DNA of 36,669 nt from Bacteroidota bacterium (GCA_039111535.1 JBCCIM010000040.1:1-36669); one strand, 5' to 3'. Positions 4,984-26,763 are shown, counted from the first letter of the stretch. The notes: generated by a model from the sequence alone, not told the origin. Made by a program: numbers and translations.

Positions 4984-5323
4984 ACAATTAATGCTGGATT
5001 CTCGGTAATTGCCGCACGAACTGATACAGGTTGGCATTACTCAAAGCGCGCTCAAATTAATAAATACGACAAGCTTGCGCTAATTCATCACATAACACGG
5101 CAAAACAACGTGTAGATGGCGACTCTTGCTGCCTATAACAACAAGCCAAATGTAATATCAGATCTGCACCAAAAAACAGAAAGATGCCTTAATAAGATGA
5201 CTTGCCTATATTGCTACCCGGCAGGGGGTATAGACATCAACCATCCATTTGTCAACCACCGGCCGGGGCCTTTATTTCATAGCACCAATTCCCTACCAAA
5301 ATGCCCCTCATCGGGCCTGCACC

Positions 5324-8300
5324 ATGCAAAAAACACACTTTCCCTCCGTGATCTTTTCAAAACCCTCAGTTTCGTCTGGCATCATGTTGATGTTGCTCAT
5401 CCTGTCGATTTTATTCCCGAGTGAGAGTCAGGCACAGCAGTATGATGAATCATCCTACCAGGCGTTGCAGTACCGGAGCATAGGCCCGTTTCGTGGCGGG
5501 CGGTCTGCGGCAGTGACAGGGGTTGCCGGCAAGCCCATGTTATACTATTTCGGCGCTACAGGCGGTGGCGTTTGGAAAACAACTGATGGCGGACAATCCT
5601 GGCAAAACATATCAGATGGCTACTTTGGTGGCTCAATTGGCGCTGTTGCGGTAAGTGAATGGGATAACAATGTGATGTATGTGGGTGGCGGTGAAAAAAC
5701 AGTGCGCGGCAATGTATCGCATGGGTACGGCATGTGGAAATCAATTGATGCCGGCAAAACCTGGCAATCGATTGGACTGGATGCATCGTATCACATCGCG
5801 AGAATTCGCATCCATCCCAAAAACCCGGACCTGGTGTATGCTGCAGTGATGGGAAACCTCTACAAAGACACGGAGGAGCGCGGCGTATATCGCAGTAAAG
5901 ATGGCGGCGAAACGTGGGAACGCATCTTGTTTGCTAACGCCGGCGCTGGCGCAGTGGACCTCATCATGGACCCTTCAAATCCACGGGTCTTGTATGCCAG
6001 CACCTGGAAAATCAGGCGAACACCCTATAGCCTGGAAAGCGGTGGCGAAGGATCCGCGTTGTGGAAATCTACCGATGGCGGGGATAACTGGGAAATGCTA
6101 AACAACAAAGAGGGCATGCCAGAGGGCTTGATGGGCATCATTGGCGTGACTGTCTCGCCGGCCAATCCGGAACGCGTATGGGCCATCATCGAAAATAAAG
6201 AAGGCGGTGTCTTCAGGTCAGAAGACGGTGGAGAAAGCTGGCAGCGCATTAATAGTGACCGTAACCTGCGCCAGCGTGCGTGGTATTACACCCGCATTTA
6301 TGCAGACCCGGTCAATGAAGACAAAGTTTACGTTGCAAACGTTCAGTTCTGGCGCTCCAAAGATGGCGGAAAATCTTTTGAAAGCATCAGTACCCCGCAT
6401 GGCGACCACCATGACTTGTGGATTGCACCGGAAGATACCGACCGCATGGTGATCGGGGACGATGGTGGCGCGCAGGTCACATACAGCGGCGGCATCAACT
6501 GGTCGACTTATCACAACCAGCCAACCTCCCAGTTTTACCGCGTCACAACCGACAACAATTTCCCCTACCGCATCCTGGGTGCGCAGCAGGATAACTCGAC
6601 AGTCCGTATTCCGAGCCGCACCAATGGCCGCAGTATTACCGACCAGGATTGGACCTCCACTGCCGGCGGCGAAAGCGGCTTTCTCGCGCCACATCCCGAC
6701 AACCCGGACCTCGTTTACGGTGGATCGTATGGTGGCTATTTGCAGCGATTTGACCATGTAACGCGCGAATCCCGCACCATAAACGTTTGGCCAGATAACC
6801 CAATGGGTGCCGGCGCTGAGGACATGCGCATCAGGTTTCAATGGAACTACCCAATTTTCTTCTCTCCTCACAATCCCGATGTGCTTTATACAACGGGCAA
6901 CCAGGTTTTCAAAACCACAACCGAGGGACAGAACTGGGAAGCCATCAGCCCGGACCTGACGCGCAATGATCCGTCTACCCTTGGTTCATCCGGCGGCCCG
7001 ATTACCAAAGACAACACCAGCGTGGAGTACTACGCAACCATCTTTTCGGCGCTCGAATCTTATCATGAACAGGGTGTCATGTGGACAGGTTCGGACGATG
7101 GGTTGATGCACATTACCCGCGATGGCGGTGCAAACTGGGAAAACATCACTCCTGATGCCCGCATCATGCCAGAATGGATTCAGATCAACAGCATCGACAT
7201 CGATCCATTTAACGCCGGCGGCTTGTATGTGGCAGCCACGATGTATAAACATGGAGACTTTGCGCCGTATCTCTATAAAACAGAGAACTATGGCGCTTCC
7301 TGGAAAAAGATTACCAATGGCATCGATGACGAACACTTTACCCGTGTAATTCGTGCGGATCCCAAACGCGCCGGCTTACTCTATGCTGGTACTGAAAGCG
7401 GGATGTACATTTCGTTCAATGATGGCGCCAACTGGCAACCCTTCCAGCTTAACCTCCCGGTTGTACCAATCACCGACCTTACCCTCAAAAATGACGACCT
7501 GGTTGTAGCAACCCAGGGCCGTTCGTTCTGGGTTATTGACGACCTGACACCTTTGCACCAGCTATCAGACGACATTGCTGATGCGTCGTTGTGGCTGTTC
7601 AATCCGCGCCCGGCCTACCGTTGGCGGGGAGGTGATGGGGAGGTGAGCGACGCCGGCCAGAACCCACCAAACGGCGTTGTCTTGCGCTACAATCTTACTG
7701 AAGACGTTGCTGCAGAGGAGGCGGCTACAATCCACATAATGGATGGCAATGATGTGCTGATCCGGTCGTACACAGCTGCAGACGACGACGTCCCGATGGA
7801 AGCCGGCATGAACCAGTTTGTATGGGACATGATGTACCCAGAAGCAGAAGGGTTCAAAGGTATGATCATGTGGGCTGGCAACCTGAGTGGCCCCAAAGCC
7901 GTCCCGGGACCCTACAAAGCACGCCTGGTGGTAGGCAATGATTCAATGACAACAACATTTGAAATCAAAAAAGACCCACGGATCAAGGCGACGGTAGCCG
8001 ACCTGCAAAGCCGGCATGTTTACGTTGCTGAAGCAAACCAGACCCTGACAGAAACGCACCAGGCCATCAAGCGAATACGCGACATACGCACCCAGGTGGA
8101 TGACATCATCACACGCGCCAGTTCGTATAACGAAGCAGAGGCCCTCAAAGAATCAGGCAACGCTATGCTTGAACAGATGAAGGCCATCGAAGAGACGCTC
8201 TATCAGACAAAAAACCAGAGCCGGCAGGATCCTCTCAATTTCCCGATCCGATTAAACAACAAACTGGCAGCTGTAAAAGGAACGGTACAACAAGGTGAGT

Positions 8301-8476
8301 ACCGACCAACAGATCAGCAAGTAGCAGTTAAAGAGGATATTACCGCAAAAATTAAAGTGGAACTGGAAAGGCTCGACGCGCTGCTTGAGCAAGAACTGCC
8401 AGCATTTAATAACATGGTACGCGACCTGCAATTGCCGGCTGTTTTTGTGGAGCAGAAGAAAAAACCGGCCATGTAA
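5324..8476 (+). CDS. Secreted VPS10/BNR-repeat (sortilin-like) glycosyl-hydrolase-family protein
   Basis: About 1050 residues from the ATG at 5324. The longer frame from TTG 5249 would bury the signal peptide (hydrophobic IMLMLLILSILF, then SESQAQ). The first three quarters carry at least eight Asp-box (BNR) elements of the form S/T-x-D-G-G-x-x-W, for example KTTDGGQSW, RSKDGGETW, KSTDGGDNW and RSEDGGESW. These are the turns of two stacked beta-propellers, as in VPS10/sortilin-like proteins. Databases often label these large Rhodothermales proteins 'glycosyl hydrolase', but catalytic residues cannot be assigned here. The last 250 residues change character: an Ig-like strand segment, then an alpha-helical region with Lys/Glu-rich heptads around 'AEANQTLTETHQAIKRIRD'. 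It is probably periplasmic or surface exposed. The next gene starts 1 base after the stop, so the two may be co-transcribed. Confidence 0.88.
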   Translation: MQKTHFPSVIFSKPSVSSGIMLMLLILSILFPSESQAQQYDESSYQALQYRSIGPFRGGRSAAVTGVAGKPMLYYFGATGGGVWKTTDGGQSWQNISDGYFGGSIGAVAVSEWDNNVMYVGGGEKTVRGNVSHGYGMWKSIDAGKTWQSIGLDASYHIARIRIHPKNPDLVYAAVMGNLYKDTEERGVYRSKDGGETWERILFANAGAGAVDLIMDPSNPRVLYASTWKIRRTPYSLESGGEGSALWKSTDGGDNWEMLNNKEGMPEGLMGIIGVTVSPANPERVWAIIENKEGGVFRSEDGGESWQRINSDRNLRQRAWYYTRIYADPVNEDKVYVANVQFWRSKDGGKSFESISTPHGDHHDLWIAPEDTDRMVIGDDGGAQVTYSGGINWSTYHNQPTSQFYRVTTDNNFPYRILGAQQDNSTVRIPSRTNGRSITDQDWTSTAGGESGFLAPHPDNPDLVYGGSYGGYLQRFDHVTRESRTINVWPDNPMGAGAEDMRIRFQWNYPIFFSPHNPDVLYTTGNQVFKTTTEGQNWEAISPDLTRNDPSTLGSSGGPITKDNTSVEYYATIFSALESYHEQGVMWTGSDDGLMHITRDGGANWENITPDARIMPEWIQINSIDIDPFNAGGLYVAATMYKHGDFAPYLYKTENYGASWKKITNGIDDEHFTRVIRADPKRAGLLYAGTESGMYISFNDGANWQPFQLNLPVVPITDLTLKNDDLVVATQGRSFWVIDDLTPLHQLSDDIADASLWLFNPRPAYRWRGGDGEVSDAGQNPPNGVVLRYNLTEDVAAEEAATIHIMDGNDVLIRSYTAADDDVPMEAGMNQFVWDMMYPEAEGFKGMIMWAGNLSGPKAVPGPYKARLVVGNDSMTTTFEIKKDPRIKATVADLQSRHVYVAEANQTLTETHQAIKRIRDIRTQVDDIITRASSYNEAEALKESGNAMLEQMKAIEETLYQTKNQSRQDPLNFPIRLNNKLAAVKGTVQQGEYRPTDQQVAVKEDITAKIKVELERLDALLEQELPAFNNMVRDLQLPAVFVEQKKKPAM

Positions 8477-8477
8477 G

Positions 8478-9131
8478 GTGGAACGTATAAAAAAACACGC
8501 TATCACCGTGCAAAAAGCTGCACGGTTTTACACCATAGGAGAAGCAAGCAGCAACACAGAATCTCTGTGGTTTGTGCTACACGGCTACGGTCAGTTGGCG
8601 AACTATTTCATACGCCACTTTGAGGCCATTGACAATGGCAAGCGACTGATCGTAGCACCGGAAGCGTTATCCAGATTCTACGTGGGGGGAGAATACAAAC
8701 GGGTAGGAGCCAGTTGGATGACAAAGGTCGAGCGGGCGGATGAAGTTGAAGATTACCTACACTATCTGAACCAGGTTGCTGACCATATCACCCGAAGCTT
8801 TGCCGGCCCGGTGCCCCCCATAACCGTGCTCGGTTTCTCTCAAGGCGCCACTACAGCCTCTCGCTGGGTTACCCTCGGCAACCTGCCGGCAAAGAAACTC
8901 ATCCTCTGGGCAGGTACAGTGGCTCATGACCTCGATTTCGACAAATACACACCCACACTTAACGCCTTGAATCCATCCTTCGTGGTTGGGGATAAAGACT
9001 ACTACATCACACCCGAACGCCTTGAACAAGAAAAGGCATTCTTGCAATCACACAACCTCAAAGTTGACTTTATCCCCTTCGCCGGCGAGCATCGATTGAA
9101 TAAAGAAGTGCTACAGTCAATAGCTGACTAA
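8478..9131 (+). CDS. Phospholipase/carboxylesterase-like alpha/beta hydrolase
   Basis: 217 residues from GTG 8478, one base after the stop of the BNR gene. A second GTG at 8508 is also possible. The frame extends upstream to TTG 8385 but only by overlapping the previous gene. The fold is the small cytosolic alpha/beta hydrolase type. HGYG (35-38) fits the oxyanion region, the nucleophile is Ser121 in GFSQG, an acidic residue (Asp172 or Asp174) sits in VVGDKDYY, and His205 in AGEHRL completes the triad. Length and motif order fit the carboxylesterase/lysophospholipase family. No signal peptide is visible, so it is probably cytoplasmic. The substrate is not predictable. Confidence 0.8.
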   Translation: MERIKKHAITVQKAARFYTIGEASSNTESLWFVLHGYGQLANYFIRHFEAIDNGKRLIVAPEALSRFYVGGEYKRVGASWMTKVERADEVEDYLHYLNQVADHITRSFAGPVPPITVLGFSQGATTASRWVTLGNLPAKKLILWAGTVAHDLDFDKYTPTLNALNPSFVVGDKDYYITPERLEQEKAFLQSHNLKVDFIPFAGEHRLNKEVLQSIAD

Positions 9132-9240
9132 CTTTGGCATAGAAGGATAGACCCCTCAATTATTCTGGCACGCTCACCAGTAGTGTTACAAAATGCCCAA
9201 CTGATGCACTAAACACATAAATCAGTTGACGTTTTTTGCC

Positions 9241-10362
9241 ATGTACCCTTCCCTATCTCTTGCTCGACGCTACACTGCAATACGTGCCATACGCTATCTT
9301 TTGCTGCCTGTCTTTTTATTGGTGGGATGTGATGCAAACGAAACGATTCCCGAGCCAATTGAACCGGAGGTCAGCGAAAACTGCATTATTGCCACGCAAG
9401 AATTTGCAAACAGCACGGGCATTGACGCCATTCCGGCGCTCGTAGACCCCAACCTGGTTACAGCTGACGAAGCAACCTATCTCCGCAATTCGGATTTGGT
9501 ACTCGGACTGCAGAATGGCGACTTCATCGTTGCTATTCCCCACAACATTTTGTGGTGGCACGAAATTGTCAATTTCAGCAACACCTCACCCCAACTTGCC
9601 GTCACGTTCTGCCCGCTTACTGGCTCTGGACTCGCCTTTGACCGCAGCCGTGTCAACAACCTCGACTTTGGTGTATCCGGTTTATTATGGCGCAACAACA
9701 ATGTGATTTTTGATCGCTCAGAAGACACCTTTTCCTTGTGGTCACAAATGGGGAGCGTGGCACTTTGCAGTTCTGAAGGCAATCCGGGCAAACGGCTGCC
9801 ACCGTATCCGCTTGTAGAAATGACCTGGGGTGGATGGAAAGACCTTTATCCGGAAACCTTTGTGGTATCTGAATCAACCGGCTTTAGCCGCAATTATGAA
9901 ATCAATCCGCTTGGCAGCTATACTGAGCCGGATAATACTACCCTGTTCTGGCCCATGCCAGGACCAGCAGACGATCGGCGCTTGCCAAAAGAACGCATCC
10001 TTGGCCTCCCGGATGAGAAAGGAGGCCTCTCAATTCCGCTTGATGAGTTGGAAAAATCTGGGCATCATGCAGTCCTGCATGTGCAGTACAAAAACCAGCC
10101 GGCCGTCATATTTTTTGATGCCGGCCGGGCCTCTGCCTGGGCCTTCTGGCTGGATGGCACACATGTCGACAGAAATTTCGCCGTTCAGGAAAACCGAATT
10201 GTAGATACGGCAACTGAAACAACCTGGCGCGTTGACGGCACAGCAGTTGACGGGCCATTAGCAGGAGCAAAGCTTACGCCTGTCGCAGAAGCCTATGTAT
10301 CTTATTGGTTCGCCTGGTCCGTATTTCAGCCAGAGGCGATCCTGTGGCGTACTGACGGCTAA
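9241..10362 (+). CDS. DUF3179 lipoprotein
   Basis: 373 residues from ATG 9241 (a TTG at 9226 adds five residues and no benefit). The N-terminus is a lipoprotein signal with lipobox LLVGC, making Cys30 the lipidated residue. The family signature is clear: PHNILWWHEIVN (100-111), then AVTFCPLTGSG (120-130), then FGVSGLLWRNNN and the SLWSQM stretch. These are the hallmark blocks of DUF3179 proteins. The function of the family is not established; the Cys in FCPLTG and the Trp-Trp-His pair are the obvious candidates for a ligand or redox site. It follows a short gene-free gap and converges on the TRAP transporter genes with one base between the stops. Confidence 0.9.
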   Translation: MYPSLSLARRYTAIRAIRYLLLPVFLLVGCDANETIPEPIEPEVSENCIIATQEFANSTGIDAIPALVDPNLVTADEATYLRNSDLVLGLQNGDFIVAIPHNILWWHEIVNFSNTSPQLAVTFCPLTGSGLAFDRSRVNNLDFGVSGLLWRNNNVIFDRSEDTFSLWSQMGSVALCSSEGNPGKRLPPYPLVEMTWGGWKDLYPETFVVSESTGFSRNYEINPLGSYTEPDNTTLFWPMPGPADDRRLPKERILGLPDEKGGLSIPLDELEKSGHHAVLHVQYKNQPAVIFFDAGRASAWAFWLDGTHVDRNFAVQENRIVDTATETTWRVDGTAVDGPLAGAKLTPVAEAYVSYWFAWSVFQPEAILWRTDG

Positions 10363-20248: not shown

Positions 20249-20962
20249 ATGAACCGCGAACACATCAAGTGGTACAGCAACCACCTCGGCCGTGACATGG
20301 AAATGCTGCGTTTTGGTCACGCCGGCACCCCAATCCTTGCCTTCCCATCTAGCCTCGGCAGATTCTTTGAATGGGAAGATTTTGGGATGGTAAAAGCCCT
20401 TGACAAACAGCTGTCAAACGGACACAACCAACTTTTCTGCGTCGATTCAGTGGATGCAGAAAGCCTGTACAACAAAGATGTAGACCCTTACACCCGTATC
20501 AAGCGCCACCAGCAATACGAAGGGTACATCGCAAATGAAGTCCTGCCCCACATCCACAACACAGCCGGACAGCAGTTTACCATCGCGGCCGGCGCAAGCT
20601 TTGGTGCCTACCACGCCACAAACATGGTACTCAAGAGACCCTGGGATTTTGGGAAGCTCATTGCACTCAGTGGGATTTTCGACATCAAGTCGCAACTCGA
20701 CGGGTTTTACAACGATGACGTCTACTTCAGTAACCCGATTGATTTTTTACCCAACCTGAGCGACGAAAATACCCTGCATGCCATCCGGCAGAATCATATT
20801 ATTCTGAACACTGCTGAGCACGACCCCTGCAAAGATGCCAACCTGCACATGAGCCACGTGCTCAACACAAAAGGCATCAACCACACACTCGACCTGCGCG
20901 ACGGTGTCTTTGGTCATGACTGGGACTGGTGGTGCCAGTTCATCCAGCAGCACATTGCCTGA
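20249..20962 (+). CDS. Esterase-D-like hydrolase, first gene of the ATP-grasp cluster
   Basis: 237 residues from ATG 20249 (the frame opens earlier at TTG 20234). It is an alpha/beta hydrolase of the PF00756 esterase type. The nucleophile is Ser117 in AAGASFGAYHA and the His is probably His223 in FGHDWDWW; an acidic partner lies in the NTAEHD segment (186-192). No signal peptide is seen, so it is cytoplasmic. It begins a five-gene plus-strand cluster and is separated from the next gene by 121 bases, the largest gap in the cluster, so a separate promoter for the downstream four is possible. Confidence 0.8.
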   Translation: MNREHIKWYSNHLGRDMEMLRFGHAGTPILAFPSSLGRFFEWEDFGMVKALDKQLSNGHNQLFCVDSVDAESLYNKDVDPYTRIKRHQQYEGYIANEVLPHIHNTAGQQFTIAAGASFGAYHATNMVLKRPWDFGKLIALSGIFDIKSQLDGFYNDDVYFSNPIDFLPNLSDENTLHAIRQNHIILNTAEHDPCKDANLHMSHVLNTKGINHTLDLRDGVFGHDWDWWCQFIQQHIA

Positions 20963-21083
20963 TGCCGGCCAGCCGGCGCTTTAAAACCCACATTGTTACA
21001 GTAATCTGTGCACACGCTATTTGTCGTTTGTGATCGTGTGCTATTCCTACCTTACCAACCCTGCATCGTACCCGCACAAGCAC

Positions 21084-22046
21084 ATGGCTACCAAAAAAAT
21101 TAAAAAAATTGGCGTACTCAGAGGCATGGAAACCACGTTTCCAGATGGCCTCATTCATCATATTAACGACACGTACGGCGACGCCGGCATCCACGCGGAG
21201 TTTATCCAACTGGATACCATTCAAATGGACAAAGACCCGGGCTATGCTGTCATTCTCGACCGCATTTCTCACGAAGTGCCGTTCTACAGATCCTACCTCA
21301 AATGGGCTGCATTAAAAGGGACCTACGTCGTAAATAACCCCTTTTGGTGGAGCGCTGACGACAAATTTATCGACAACATTATTGCAGAAGAAGCCGGCGT
21401 GGCCGTACCACGCAGTGCCATCCTGCCCCACAAAGACCACCTGCCAAATACCAGCGATAGCTCCTATCGTAACCTCAACTACCCAGTAGACTGGGAATCA
21501 CTCTTTGCTTACATCGAGTTCCCGGCTTTCATGAAACCGCACGATGGCGGCGGTTGGCGCGGCGTAACCAAAGTGCACAACCGCGAAGAGTTCTTTGAGG
21601 CATACGACGAATCGGGCGTCGACTGTATGATGCTTCAGGAAAATATTGATTTTGAAGATTACTTTCGCTGCTATGGTGTAGGCCAATCCGAAGTACGCAT
21701 TATGCGCTACAATCCATTGGCAGACAACTCACGGGCACGCTATGAAGAAATCGACCCATCACCTGTTGACCCTAAAATGCTGGCCAAGCTGAAGCGAGAC
21801 GTGCTCGCCATATGCAAAGCCCTGGGCTACGACTTCAACACCGTTGAACTGGCGGTTCGCGATGGCATTCCCTACGCCATCGATTTCATGAACCCGGCGC
21901 CAGACGCAGATTATCACTCGGTAGGCAAAGAAAACTACGAATGGGTAATTAAGACGGTGGGCAAGTTTTTGGTTAAGATGGCCAAAAAGACCCGCCGTAA
22001 GAAGCAGTTTTCTGCAAACGGTGCACTCGAGCCAGCTGCAAAATAG
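21084..22046 (+). CDS. RimK-like ATP-grasp ligase
   Basis: 320 residues from ATG 21084 (an in-frame TTG at 21021 is ignored because MATKKIKKIGVLRG is a normal start for the preATP-grasp domain). ATP-grasp features appear in order: the preATP region with DRISHEVPFYRSYLKWA (59-76), the glycine-rich loop KPHDGGGWRG (151-160), and the metal and carboxylate-activating end with Glu256 and D-F-M-N-P (267-271). The family couples ATP hydrolysis to amide bond formation between a carboxylate and an amine. The C-terminal 25 residues are Lys/Arg-rich. It lies 37 bases before the second ligase. The substrate is unknown. Confidence 0.82.
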   Translation: MATKKIKKIGVLRGMETTFPDGLIHHINDTYGDAGIHAEFIQLDTIQMDKDPGYAVILDRISHEVPFYRSYLKWAALKGTYVVNNPFWWSADDKFIDNIIAEEAGVAVPRSAILPHKDHLPNTSDSSYRNLNYPVDWESLFAYIEFPAFMKPHDGGGWRGVTKVHNREEFFEAYDESGVDCMMLQENIDFEDYFRCYGVGQSEVRIMRYNPLADNSRARYEEIDPSPVDPKMLAKLKRDVLAICKALGYDFNTVELAVRDGIPYAIDFMNPAPDADYHSVGKENYEWVIKTVGKFLVKMAKKTRRKKQFSANGALEPAAK

Positions 22047-22083
22047 CTGCTTTCCACCACCGATAAATCCCCGACAGGCGGCC

Positions 22084-23472
22084 ATGGCGCAGCACCTACA
22101 ACAGGCTATACACGACTTCCACTCGCTAATCGAAAAAGATTTTGGCGCAGCGGAAGAACAGCTCAAACTCCTGCAACATTTGCAGCATGAACGCAAGGTT
22201 ACGTTTGGCGACCGCGCCATGGCACATAGCCTCCGCCCAACATTCTTGACGGAGGCAACCTACAACCTCGTCCAGGATCGCGTTTACCTGATCCGGCAGG
22301 CATTCCTGCATATTGCAGCGCGGCACTTCAACGATGTGCAACTCCTGAAAACGGAGCTGGGCATGGAGGATTGGGAGTTGGAGCTGGCTGCCATTCCAAC
22401 CAAAGTGATTCGTCTCTCTGCGCTCTCAAGAATGGATTCTTTTCTTACCAAAGACTCCTTCAAATTTGTCGAGATCAATGGCGAGAATCCGGCTGGCATT
22501 GCATACCTGCATGAACTGGGAGAAATTTATCGGTCGCTGCCCATTTTCCAGCAATTCGAGAAAATGCACCCCGTACGCTTTGTCTCCCCGATGGAGCACA
22601 CGCTGGCAGCATTATCGTTTATCTACCACGAGCAATTTGATGGTAAAGCAGAGCGCCCCGCCATTGCCATCGTTGACAAACTGGATGTACCCACGATCCA
22701 CGAGTTCAATTTGCTACAGGCATACTGCGAACGCATGGGCCATCCTTGCGTGGTAGCAGATCCGCGGTCGCTGACGTGCCGGGATGGCTGGATTTATGCG
22801 GGTAACCAGCGTATAGATATCCTGTACCGCCGGCTTCTAATCAACGAATTTTACGAGATGAAAGATGAGTGCCGGGCCTTTCTGGAAGGCTACATGGCAC
22901 AGAAGACGTGCTACCTGAACACCTTCCGCACCAAGCTCGTCCACAAAAAAGCCATCTTCAGTTTTCTGACCGATGAGAAGTACACGGATCAGCTTCCGCC
23001 GGAGCAGCAGTCTGCGATCCGGCAGCACATCCCGTGGACACGTATCTTGCGGCCGGCAAAAACAACTTTCAGGGGCTTGAAGATCGACCTGATGGAATTT
23101 GTCAGAAACAACCGGGCCTATTTTGTTATCAAACCGAACGATGCGTATGGCGGTGATGGGGTAACGCTGGGATTTGCCGTATCACAGCAAGAATGGGACG
23201 AGGCTATTGAACGCAGCATAACTGACTGTTTTGTTGTCCAGGAAGCCGTCGATATTCATAAGGAGCCGTTTCTGGTAAATACGGATAAAGGCTGGGATAT
23301 GGTGCCAACTATCATCGATCTCGATCCTTATCTGAATGGACCGCTTATGGGTGGATGCCTCACGCGTACATCAGCCACGAACTTGGCAAATGTAACAGCC
23401 GGCGGCGGTACATTACCCATGTTCATCCTTCGTCACACCTACGACGACCAGAGCTTTCATTTGGCAGACTAG
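22084..23472 (+). CDS. Circularly permuted type ATP-grasp ligase
   Basis: 462 residues from ATG 22084. The metal-binding motif FVEINGENPAG (128-138) comes before the glycine-rich ATP loop VIKPNDAYGGDGV (348-360). This is the reverse of the normal ATP-grasp order and fits circularly permuted ATP-grasp proteins. A further conserved stretch near the end (PTIIDLDPYLNGP, 409-421) fits the family's remaining ATP-site part. The enzyme should activate a carboxylate and form an amide or peptide bond. It is 27 bases upstream of the amidotransferase gene, so the two are probably translated from one message. Confidence 0.8.
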   Translation: MAQHLQQAIHDFHSLIEKDFGAAEEQLKLLQHLQHERKVTFGDRAMAHSLRPTFLTEATYNLVQDRVYLIRQAFLHIAARHFNDVQLLKTELGMEDWELELAAIPTKVIRLSALSRMDSFLTKDSFKFVEINGENPAGIAYLHELGEIYRSLPIFQQFEKMHPVRFVSPMEHTLAALSFIYHEQFDGKAERPAIAIVDKLDVPTIHEFNLLQAYCERMGHPCVVADPRSLTCRDGWIYAGNQRIDILYRRLLINEFYEMKDECRAFLEGYMAQKTCYLNTFRTKLVHKKAIFSFLTDEKYTDQLPPEQQSAIRQHIPWTRILRPAKTTFRGLKIDLMEFVRNNRAYFVIKPNDAYGGDGVTLGFAVSQQEWDEAIERSITDCFVVQEAVDIHKEPFLVNTDKGWDMVPTIIDLDPYLNGPLMGGCLTRTSATNLANVTAGGGTLPMFILRHTYDDQSFHLAD

Positions 23473-23499
23473 ACCGGAAGCTGTTTTACTTTCAATATC

Positions 23500-24327
23500 A
23501 TGCGTGTAGCCCTTATAGATCTGTATAACGGAGAGCCCAACCTGGGTATCCAGGCCATCAAAGACCTGGTGAACCGATGGGGTAAACGTGAACTCGATAC
23601 GTCCCTACAACTGGACCATTTCGAAACACGGAAAACCGGCGACGTACCGGATTTGAGCTACGACGCTTATTTGCTATCAGGCGGCCCCGGCAGTCCTTTT
23701 GACGGAGAAGGCACAGCATGGGAAACAGCCTATTTTGAATTGGTAGGTGCGCTCTGGCAACACAACAAGCAGAGCCAGAGCGATCCGAAATACGCGCTCT
23801 TTATTTGCCACTCCTTCCAGATGATGTGCCGGCATTTTGGCCTGGGTGACGTTGTACAACGTAAATCCACATCGTTTGGTGTATTTGAAACGCATCAAAC
23901 CGCAGCCGGCCATACGGATCCGCTTTTCGAAGGACTCCAGGATCCGTTTTACGTGGCTGACTTCCGCGACTGGCAGGCTATACAACCTCGCACAGAAGTG
24001 CTTGGCAACCTGGGCGCAAGCGTGTTGGCGCTCGAAAAGCAGCGACCACATATTCCGATGGAACGCGCACTTATGGGCTTCCGTCTTTCAACAGAAATGG
24101 TCGGCGTACAATTTCATCCTGAAGCTGACCCGGCGGGGATGCTCGTCCATTTCCAAAAGGATGCGCGACGGGCAGCCATTATCAAAACGCACGGCGAAGA
24201 GAAATTCAACCAGATCATCAGCCGCCTCGAAGACCCCGAGTTTCTGCTGCATACTTACCAGCGCGTAATTCCAAATTTCCTTGCAGATGCAGTGGCCGCT
24301 CGCAAAGGCATGCCACAAACCGCCTGA
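23500..24327 (+). CDS. Class I glutamine amidotransferase-like protein
   Basis: 275 residues. The fold is the triad-type GATase1: LSGGPGSP (59-66), nucleophile Cys103 in FICHSFQ, and His206 plus Glu208 in VQFHPE. The elbow differs from the classical G-x-C-x-G-x-Q. It keeps the Cys and the Gln but replaces both Gly, which may mean altered substrate or a gamma-glutamyl-type hydrolase. Such enzymes normally release ammonia from glutamine for a partner synthetase. Here two ATP-grasp ligases lie immediately upstream. It ends 11 bases before the last esterase. Confidence 0.83.
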   Translation: MRVALIDLYNGEPNLGIQAIKDLVNRWGKRELDTSLQLDHFETRKTGDVPDLSYDAYLLSGGPGSPFDGEGTAWETAYFELVGALWQHNKQSQSDPKYALFICHSFQMMCRHFGLGDVVQRKSTSFGVFETHQTAAGHTDPLFEGLQDPFYVADFRDWQAIQPRTEVLGNLGASVLALEKQRPHIPMERALMGFRLSTEMVGVQFHPEADPAGMLVHFQKDARRAAIIKTHGEEKFNQIISRLEDPEFLLHTYQRVIPNFLADAVAARKGMPQTA

Positions 24328-24338
24328 CACTTCCAAAT

Positions 24339-25268
24339 ATGACGCGACGCGATATTCTCGCCCGGCACAGGCAAAGCCTGCAGGGCACCTTGCGGGCCTG
24401 CTACCTGCCTTCCCCGGCACTGGGAATAAACAAATCTTTCTATGTTTACGAGCCCCCCGGCTTCAACAAAAAAATGCCGCTGCCGCTACTCTACCTTTTC
24501 AGGGGGCACGAGCGTGAATGGGTAAATATGGAAGAAGACAGTTCCCGACAGCACGCAACAGCCATCGAGGACATCGACAAAGCCATTGCATTACAAATGA
24601 TTCCGCCAGTTCTGGTGGTTATGCCTGGCCTAAACAGCAGCAACAACCATGTCCCTTCGCTGGGTGTCAACATGGTGGGCACCTGGAGTGCATCCATGCG
24701 TGGCCTTGGGTCTGGCAAGTTTTGGGAATACCTTACCAAAGAGTTTTTTCCGGCGGTCCACAAGCGTTACCCGGCTGCCGGTAGTAAACGGCTTGCAGCA
24801 GGTTTCTCACTTGGCGGTTTTACTGCAAGTCTGCTGGCAATTCGGTGCCCCGACTTGCTTACACATGTAGGCATCTACGATGGCCTGTTCATGTGGCCCA
24901 GGCACCAGGATCCGCGGGCAACACCACTGTCTCCCGGCAACGATGCAGTATGGACCAAAGGAGCTATTTTCAACCCTGCATTTGGCACCCCCCGCGACCA
25001 GGCAGCGCTTGCCCGCTGGAACCCCACTGATACCCTTTCCAACACAGATGCCGGCCTTTACCAGAATACAGACTGGTGGGTAAGCTGCGCGCCTTCAGAT
25101 GGACAGCACGGCAACCACGACCGGGCCAATTTTTACCATGAACTGCTGCAGGACAAAGGTATAACCCAACGGGCAGCAAACATAGTTTTTGACGAGCAGG
25201 CAACCCATAGCTGGCATTGGGCTGATAAATTCCTCTTGTACTTCCTTACAGATGCGCTAAATGGCTAG
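24339..25268 (+). CDS. PF00756-type esterase, last gene of the ATP-grasp cluster
   Basis: 309 residues with no signal peptide. The nucleophile is Ser157 in AAGFSLGGF and the catalytic His is one of HSWHWAD (His290 or His293). An acid could be Asp254 in APSDGQH. The 'LLYLFRGHEREW' segment carries the oxyanion strand. It resembles Fes and antigen-85-like esterases rather than the first esterase of the cluster, so the two are not recent duplicates. It starts 11 bases after the amidotransferase and converges with a minus-strand gene 9 bases later. Confidence 0.78.
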   Translation: MTRRDILARHRQSLQGTLRACYLPSPALGINKSFYVYEPPGFNKKMPLPLLYLFRGHEREWVNMEEDSSRQHATAIEDIDKAIALQMIPPVLVVMPGLNSSNNHVPSLGVNMVGTWSASMRGLGSGKFWEYLTKEFFPAVHKRYPAAGSKRLAAGFSLGGFTASLLAIRCPDLLTHVGIYDGLFMWPRHQDPRATPLSPGNDAVWTKGAIFNPAFGTPRDQAALARWNPTDTLSNTDAGLYQNTDWWVSCAPSDGQHGNHDRANFYHELLQDKGITQRAANIVFDEQATHSWHWADKFLLYFLTDALNG

Positions 25269-25277
25269 GTGTCGGCG

Positions 25278-25679
25278 CTAGAGGGTACGCCGGTTAAATT
25301 CATCGATCAGCTTCTCAACCTTGAGGCGGTGCTTGTGCGCAACGCTGAGCTTGATCTCATCATCAAAGTTACCAGGCATCGCCTTGAGCAGGTCGACTTT
25401 TTTGGGACGCACACAAACTTTGTCTTTGAACATTCCCTTTTTCACAACGATGTCTTCGATGGCCGCCGGCTCAATCTTGATTGTTTGCTCTTTTTCGCTG
25501 AACTCGCCGAAGAGCGACGTTGCAACGTCAAAAACCAGGAACTCCTCATCAAAATAAATATAGCCTGACACCTCATTAAAACCCACGTCAGGCAATTTAA
25601 ACGGAATGTTGTTCATGTAGTAAAACGTACCAGTTACGTACTGCAGATTACTTGTAAATTGATTGGATACGGAACCCAT
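25278..25679 (-). CDS. Hypothetical protein of 133 residues
   Basis: I do not recognise a family. The start is an ATG at 25679. There is no signal peptide or membrane helix. The sequence alternates short beta-strand-like stretches (YIYFDEEFLVFDVAT, TIKIEPAAIEDIVVKK, KVCVRPKKVDLLKAMPG) and ends in a helix 'RLKVEKLIDEFNRR'. That pattern resembles small PH/GRAM-like domains, but this is only a visual impression. It converges with the esterase gene and is divergent from the HEAT lipoprotein gene. Confidence 0.65.
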   Translation of the reverse strand: MGSVSNQFTSNLQYVTGTFYYMNNIPFKLPDVGFNEVSGYIYFDEEFLVFDVATSLFGEFSEKEQTIKIEPAAIEDIVVKKGMFKDKVCVRPKKVDLLKAMPGNFDDEIKLSVAHKHRLKVEKLIDEFNRRTL

Positions 25680-25773: not shown

Positions 25774-25833
25774 TTCATCTTATACCGGTACGATGATCTG
25801 TTGGGCGAGGTTCACACAACAGCTCTGATATCC

Positions 25834-26763
25834 ATGCTTTATACCGTGTCTCCCATCCAGCGTATCTTCGCATCTACGATCCTTGCGGCTGTCATTATTT
25901 TCAGTCTGTCAGGCTGTAAAACAGCGTCGGTGCCGCCGGCTTCCTACTTATTGACGGGCAACGTCCACCAACAATGCCTCACCATCCTGCGTGAAGGCGT
26001 ACAGGGAGACGAATTCTGGCCCTCTATACACGCGGCAGAAGCATTGATTAGAGAAGACTACGCCTTCGAAGCGACACCACTCATCGAAGCGCGTATGGGA
26101 AGCGAACGAGATCGCCGGCGTATTGCAGGCTACGCACGCGCCCTTGCTCTGACTGACTACAACCAGGGCATTGTGGCCCTGCAAGACATCCTGCTGTCAG
26201 ACGACCTCGAGGCGCGTATTCTTGCTGCCGAGGCGATGTTTAGAACTGGACTTGTTGGCGATCCCGTGATCCTCGAACAGGCAACAGATCCTTCAAACAA
26301 TGGCCGCCTGCGTGTTTTTGCGGCCGCTGCGCTTACCGTTACAGATCGCGCAAATATGCGAGATCTTGTCCGGGAAGCATTGGGTAGCAATGATCCGGCC
26401 GCTCGCTATATTGCAGCAGACGTGATACCGATCATCGGCAGCCTCGAAGAAGATGTGCCCACCCTGATCGACAAAAAAGACCTCGTAAACAGCGACTTTG
26501 AGAACCTGTATTTTGTGCGGGCACTCGCCATGTTTGGCCTCGAATCCGCGCGAAAAGAGTTACTTAGCTTCCTGAAACACCCCGATCCAACCATCCGCTC
26601 ACGCGCAGCTTTTTCGATAGCAGAAGCATGGTATGTCGAATCAAGCAACCAGTTAATCCCGCTCCTCAAAGACCCCGCACTGGCCGTCCGTGTACGCGCA
26701 GCACAGGCCTTACTCACAATGGCAAACCCCAACTCGGCGTACAGACTCCTGCGCAGCAGGTAA
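25834..26763 (+). CDS. HEAT-repeat lipoprotein
   Basis: 309 residues from ATG 25834 (TTG 25801 only lengthens the signal). The lipobox is LSGC, with Cys28 lipidated. The mature protein is almost entirely paired helices of about 30 residues, the HEAT/PBS-lyase style, with recurring 'RxxAAxAL' elements such as RVFAAAALTV, ARYIAADVIP, RSRAAFSIAEAW and RVRAAQALLTM. Such proteins are usually scaffolds for protein-protein contacts. It should sit in the inner or outer membrane facing the periplasm. It is followed by two more envelope genes on the same strand with gaps of 90-180 bases. Confidence 0.85.
   Translation: MLYTVSPIQRIFASTILAAVIIFSLSGCKTASVPPASYLLTGNVHQQCLTILREGVQGDEFWPSIHAAEALIREDYAFEATPLIEARMGSERDRRRIAGYARALALTDYNQGIVALQDILLSDDLEARILAAEAMFRTGLVGDPVILEQATDPSNNGRLRVFAAAALTVTDRANMRDLVREALGSNDPAARYIAADVIPIIGSLEEDVPTLIDKKDLVNSDFENLYFVRALAMFGLESARKELLSFLKHPDPTIRSRAAFSIAEAWYVESSNQLIPLLKDPALAVRVRAAQALLTMANPNSAYRLLRSR

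Follow-up and report, generated by a model that had tools for sequence, protein, structure and literature searches.

A conserved five-gene cluster with two ATP-grasp ligases in a Bacteroidota bacterium and the exchanged partners of its relatives in other phyla

The window analyzed in this work, a stretch of 36,669 nucleotides from a Bacteroidota bacterium (GCA_039111535.1 JBCCIM010000040.1:1-36669), carries at positions 20249-25268 five genes encoding an esterase, two different ATP-grasp ligases, a glutamine-amidotransferase-like protein and a second esterase. Because the cluster is kept together across the class of its host and its core recurs elsewhere with exchanged partners, it probably makes a small amide-linked molecule. 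We lean toward a small pathway independent of nonribosomal peptide synthetases, in which the two ligases would act in turn to give an amide-linked (pseudo)peptide. What we observed are the genes, their families and folds, conserved putative catalytic residues, the conservation of gene order and the modular exchange of partners; from these we infer amide rather than ester or phosphate chemistry, the order of the steps and a soluble small product. The genes are the following:

EST1, 20249-20962, plus strand: 237 amino acids, alpha/beta-hydrolase of the putative-esterase family PF00756
GRASP1, 21084-22046, plus strand: 320 amino acids, ATP-grasp ligase resembling RimK, LysX and Ddl, outside all named Pfam families
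CPgrasp, 22084-23472, plus strand: 462 amino acids, circularly permuted ATP-grasp ligase with a fold like that of eukaryotic glutathione synthetase and GspS
GAT, 23500-24327, plus strand: 275 amino acids, class-I glutamine-amidotransferase-like protein with an intact Cys103-His206-Glu208 triad
EST2, 24339-25268, plus strand: 309 amino acids, second protein of the PF00756 esterase fold

A preliminary description made from the sequence alone had placed five same-strand genes here, and all five open reading frames (ORFs) are indeed intact on the plus strand, with gaps of exactly 121, 37, 27 and 11 bases. It would have been refuted had the genes never occurred together elsewhere, which is disproved by the 34 neighbourhoods (L032-L045, L136-L155) that we read from other genomes of the class, taken as probably the Rhodothermia group. 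In every one of them GRASP1 and CPgrasp lie next to each other, with order and strand kept, so that the arrangement is not due to chance. EST1 stands with the ligases in 30/34 neighbourhoods, GAT likewise in 30/34 and EST2 in 20/34, and the complete five-gene order is found in 17 of them. The order persists across class-wide divergence (~40-78% identity), and the two ligase reading frames of some relatives share a few bases (L042, for example). In the class as a whole, GRASP1 is matched at E <1e-60 in 42 of 244 genomes, or in 57 when weak matches are counted; named close relatives from another collection are labelled Balneolia, Rhodothermales, Rhodothermaceae and Salinivenus. As the class sequences form a single well-supported clade in a maximum-likelihood tree (98/98, 34 rows, the divergent L144 left out), the data fit a cluster that was passed on vertically in the class for the most part.

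Families, folds and conserved residues

GRASP1 matched no Pfam family, and NCBIfam gave weak RimK and VanG matches far under their cut-offs; with 23 bits against a cut-off of 143.4 it lies outside the RimK family TIGR00768. Its identity as an ATP-grasp protein is predicted from a profile match to the D-Ala-D-Ala ligase 3r23 (E 1.4e-5) and from an AlphaFold (AF2) model built with 40 natural relatives, with a predicted local distance difference test (pLDDT) of 88. The full-length modelled fold is that of RimK/Ddl-type ATP-grasp enzymes: in VIA-align, RimK, LysX and ArgX reached Z 20-22, with RimK 7qys_B at the top (Z 22.0, 260 residues, 2.8 Å) and LysX 3vpd close to it (Z 21.7), followed by Ddl and inositol-phosphate kinases at Z 19-20. 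As the top rows lie so close together, the fold group appears clear from the model, but the chemistry is not proved by it. GRASP1 shares with the RimK, LysX/ArgX and D-Ala-D-Ala ligases the fold over nearly its whole model (Z 19-22, root-mean-square deviation ~2.7-3.8 Å) as well as the ATP-site lysine and the metal-site acidic residues, and differs from them in its low identity (11-20%), its lack of a Pfam family and its own motifs DRISHE, NPFWWSADDK and NPAPD. Residues K151, E255, D267 and N270, invariant in 40 sequences, would be by homology the ATP-site lysine, two acidic metal ligands and their Asn. GRASP1 was not found in the viral contigs or plasmids searched, and an origin as phage or plasmid cargo is therefore unlikely.

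CPgrasp scored 29 bits with CP_ATPgrasp_2 (PF14403), just under the gathering cut-off of 32, and phmmer matched it to 3n6x (E 1.8e-8). Its AF2 model, built from 9 sequences and of moderate quality (pLDDT 76), has the permuted ATP-grasp fold according to Foldseek, which matched human glutathione synthetase (8fbz; E 4.7e-12, prob 1.00, TM ~0.58); other structural matches were eukaryotic-type glutathione synthetases, homoglutathione synthetase, 3n6x, GspS, YgiC/YjfC and Cp1B. R116, D118, E130, N132 and K350 are invariant in the 9 sequences, and the E-x-N motif, which aligns with that of 3n6x, stands before the ATP-site lysine, i.e., in permuted order. CPgrasp thus shares the circularly permuted architecture of these enzymes, although it is only 9-17% identical to them and has different gene neighbours; unlike GspS (~590 residues, 2io7), its 462 residues leave no space for an amidase domain. 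A relative ~35-37% identical to CPgrasp (L046:7181-8743) is found without GRASP1 in a different family of the same phylum, where an argC-like gene follows it immediately. No equivalog-level model fits GRASP1 or CPgrasp, and we rejected a role of either in central metabolism, which was the second condition that would have refuted the preliminary description.

GAT belongs to PF00117 (36.4 bits, cut-off 22.8), and its C103, H206 and E208 are invariant in 13 orthologues. The closest profile match in the PDB was 3l7n, an uncharacterised protein (E 0.0018), which does not separate an amidotransferase from a gamma-glutamyl hydrolase.

Both esterases exceed the PF00756 cut-off of 22 bits (EST1 30.5, EST2 66.1), and EST1 has profile matches to solved feruloyl-esterase-like structures. 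Their putative triads, S117-D192-H223 in EST1 and S157-D254-H290 in EST2, are invariant in 11 and 9 orthologues, respectively. The two profiles are related (hhalign E 1.8e-8), yet over only 141 columns and with 23% identity; judged by sequence they are not recent duplicates, as had been proposed. Distant homologues of EST1 adjoin an ATP-grasp_4 protein in three of the five plasmid loci read (Peptoclostridium acidaminophilum, Pararhizobium qamdonense and Sinorhizobium sp. RAC02), but not in those of Rhizobium sp. 11515TR and Thiodictyon, hence EST1-type esterases seem to pair with ATP-grasp ligases of differing kinds. These pairs (L134:3788-5753, L135:3828-5756 and L185:2819-4681, on plasmids of Bacillota and Alphaproteobacteria) represent a second, separate esterase/ATP-grasp pair.

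As the putative catalytic residues are invariant in the aligned relatives, each of the five proteins appears to be catalytically competent; the residues presumably have the roles familiar from each family.

Exchanged partners outside the class

A genome scan gave at least 560 encoded GRASP1 relatives, counted among its first 591 pattern matches. The best 80 of these include ~10 from the Rhodothermia group; the rest are mostly from Acidobacteriota, apart from some unplaced metagenome-assembled genomes and single loci of Armatimonadota and Calditrichota. Of 199 genomes drawn evenly from the Acidobacteriota phylum, 66 had GRASP1 matches, some of them weak only. In Acidobacteriota, the pair EST1-GRASP1, which recurs in Armatimonadota as well, is followed by a GCS2 ligase (PF04107), an M29-type peptidase and a protein named here X4; the opposite strand often has EST5, a divergent gene of PF00756. 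Among the 42 sufficiently flanked loci from outside the Rhodothermia group, the partners were GCS2 (31), EST1 (24), M29 (23), X4 (19) and EST5 (18). All five further Calditrichota loci read hold GRASP1-GCS2 with M29 and/or X4 and without EST1. We do not claim EST2 as the orthologue of EST5, the two matching over a short stretch only (E 0.043).

Two loci, L131:10007-13557 and L144 (around 5209-9584), carry GRASP1, CPgrasp and GCS2 together, linking both types of cluster, and may represent an older form. L180 and L184 have GRASP1 with a distant CPgrasp, the ligases at L184 being ~0.3 kb apart; none of L144, L180 and L184 belongs to the main GRASP1 clades, although their branches are long and their exact placement is unsure. 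A simple reading is that an older GRASP1-CPgrasp-GCS2 unit may have given rise to two derived forms: in the class of the window GCS2 would have been exchanged for GAT and EST2, and in Acidobacteriota CPgrasp would have been exchanged for X4 and the M29 peptidase gained.

X4 (390-410 amino acids, e.g., L062:6038-7252) has no Pfam family and is kept in the Acidobacteriota and Calditrichota versions of the cluster. It contains the ATP-grasp-like motifs LVELQAFPS and LLKPLYSFAGKGI (alignment A8). We rejected X4 as a plain homologue of CPgrasp, the colinear hhalign match being weak (E 0.0025, probability 12%), and as it had no profile hit in the PDB either, X4 is left as ATP-grasp-like, unproven.

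The unit is therefore modular, with an EST1-GRASP1 core in several phyla and a GATase/EST2 part added in the class of the window, a property that the preliminary description missed. We somewhat favour the view that a widespread and undescribed family of amide-synthesis units is built on EST1-GRASP1 as its core, with exchangeable modules (CPgrasp, GCS2, M29 peptidase, X4, GATase plus EST2). Such units would make natural products or cofactors of an unknown class in bacteria of the Acidobacteriota, Calditrichota and Armatimonadota and in Rhodothermia-like ones. The GRASP1 family is common, yet without a Pfam model, and occurs in Terriglobus roseus DSM 18391, Edaphobacter lichenicola and Bryocella elongata. 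The defined core of the cluster, together with the exchange of its second and third enzymes in nature, offers a ready comparison for finding the substrates and points to an unknown metabolite of common soil bacteria; new stand-alone amide ligases are of practical use as well. In T. roseus DSM 18391 (the genome of L095, G466), two GRASP1 matches of equal score at 2470361-2471248 and 2930881-2931768 may reflect a recent duplication.

The candidate pathway and its alternatives

In the proposed pathway, GRASP1 would activate a carboxylate as acyl phosphate and couple it to an amine, and CPgrasp would add a second amine or amino acid to the product, as in glutathione synthetase, GspS or Cp1B. GAT could provide the ammonia of a terminal amide or could just as well cleave a gamma-glutamyl-type bond; in Acidobacteriota its place in the cluster is taken by the GCS2 ligase and the M29-type peptidase. 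EST1, as the ligase's constant companion, may hydrolyze an ester of the substrate or product, or transfer an acyl group, and EST2 may do a similar job in the class of the window only. An ester-protected or lipid intermediate, as suggested in the preliminary description, is a guess from the two PF00756 proteins. Several observations speak for the stepwise pathway: both ATP-grasp models match peptide or amide ligases best (RimK, LysX, ArgX and Ddl for GRASP1; for CPgrasp, glutathione and homoglutathione synthetases, GspS, YgiC and Cp1B), the putative active-site residues are invariant, and the ligases adjoin each other not only in the 34 class neighbourhoods but also in the divergent L131, L144 and L180, and are nearby in L184. 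The partners in other phyla are again amide-bond enzymes (GCS2, M29, X4), and the plasmid-borne EST1 homologues beside an ATP-grasp_4 protein speak for it as well.

Clusters of this kind are already known, and the present gene combination is a variant of the ATP-grasp/amidoligase clusters with hydrolases. Iyer et al. in 2009 reportedly surveyed such clusters and described operons with at least two amide ligases of different folds plus peptidases or hydrolases; a combination of a GATase with two PF00756 proteins is not known from that survey. A literature search of partial coverage found no description of this gene set. The biosynthesis of E-64 offers a parallel, in which Cp1B, an ATP-grasp enzyme that forms a pseudodipeptide and in structure comes nearest to homoglutathione synthetase and YgiC/YjfC, acts with Cp1D in two stepwise amide-forming reactions without an NRPS (PMC12568646). 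Cp1B shares the fold of CPgrasp; however, that pathway is fungal, its second enzyme is of the ANL type, it includes an epoxide-forming oxygenase, and the paper mentions no esterase (PMC12568646).

Other observations weigh against stepwise amide synthesis. ATP-grasp folds include non-amide enzymes, and inositol-phosphate kinases reach Z ~20 with GRASP1. In the moderate CPgrasp model, residues 109-136, including R116, D118, E130 and N132, have pLDDT <50. GAT might act as a hydrolase and not as an amidotransferase. Moreover, GAT is not beside the ligases in 4/34 loci of the class (one of which reaches the contig end) and EST2 is absent there in 14/34, for which reason both may be dispensable. Finally, the cluster lacks a conserved transporter or regulator that would assign it to secondary metabolism.

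The alternative that survives best, though we consider it unlikely, is that the cluster modifies a protein or polymer: GRASP1 would attach amino acids to a protein or to a polymer of the cell surface, in the way that RimK acts on ribosomal protein S6, and the tag would be trimmed or taken off again by GAT and the esterases. In VIA-align GRASP1 matches RimK best, with nearly equal scores for LysX/ArgX, enzymes acting on a carrier protein, and the M29-type peptidases of the Acidobacteriota version would suit tag removal. However, a carrier or target gene is absent from the cluster, whose gaps are of at most 121 bases, serine esterases would be unusual for removing peptide tags, and the nearest folds to CPgrasp act on small peptides and amines.

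Somewhat less probable again is a low-molecular-weight thiol or glutathione-like pathway, with a gamma-glutamyl peptide made by GCS2 and a glutathione-synthetase-like ligase and with GAT as gamma-glutamyl peptidase. The union of GRASP1, CPgrasp and GCS2 at L131 and L144 and the glutathione-synthetase-like fold of CPgrasp agree with it, as does a lone GCS2 gene elsewhere in G000; but the cluster in the window has no glutamate-cysteine ligase, nor was a cysteine-specific enzyme recognised in it. GCS2 does not track the cluster in the class, because it has no match in the cluster-bearing genomes of family f51 (G394-G398) and is common in cluster-free genomes, and we rejected it as an obligate partner in trans. 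That five housekeeping genes without a common pathway merely lie side by side is very improbable, even if no characterised pathway matching the set was found, and is refuted by the synteny conserved in the 34 neighbourhoods, the overlapping ligase genes of some relatives and the recurrence of EST1-GRASP1 in two other phyla.

The synthesis of an amide-linked compound by two amide-type ligases and a GATase-like protein in an uncharacterised pathway, as first proposed, fits all these results, and the earlier interpretation as a whole is partly supported.

Surroundings of the cluster

The G+C content of the cluster, 52%, is similar to the 50.5% of the window. No signal peptide was evident by eye on the five proteins (no predictor was run), a scan for promoters and terminators gave no excess over shuffles, and PADLOC gave no match that would make the cluster a defence system. 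For the precursor peptide gene expected of a graspetide (a ribosomally synthesized and post-translationally modified peptide), the gaps leave scarcely any space; the flanks had no systematic search. It holds for the window that no regulator, transporter or resistance gene is attached, the neighbouring Nramp-like transporter being on the opposite strand and not conserved. We also rejected a conserved upstream transporter, since ABC-transporter-like genes were seen by eye only at L052, L053 and perhaps L057.

An ORF of 133 amino acids without a Pfam family (25278-25679, minus strand) lies between EST2 and a HEAT-repeat gene, and was not found in the other class loci searched. The HEAT-repeat gene (25801-26763, plus strand), lipoprotein-like by eye, is also present at L136 and L137; its position downstream of the cluster is kept only in the window's own family (G400, G401), which has the flanking RarA gene in common as well.

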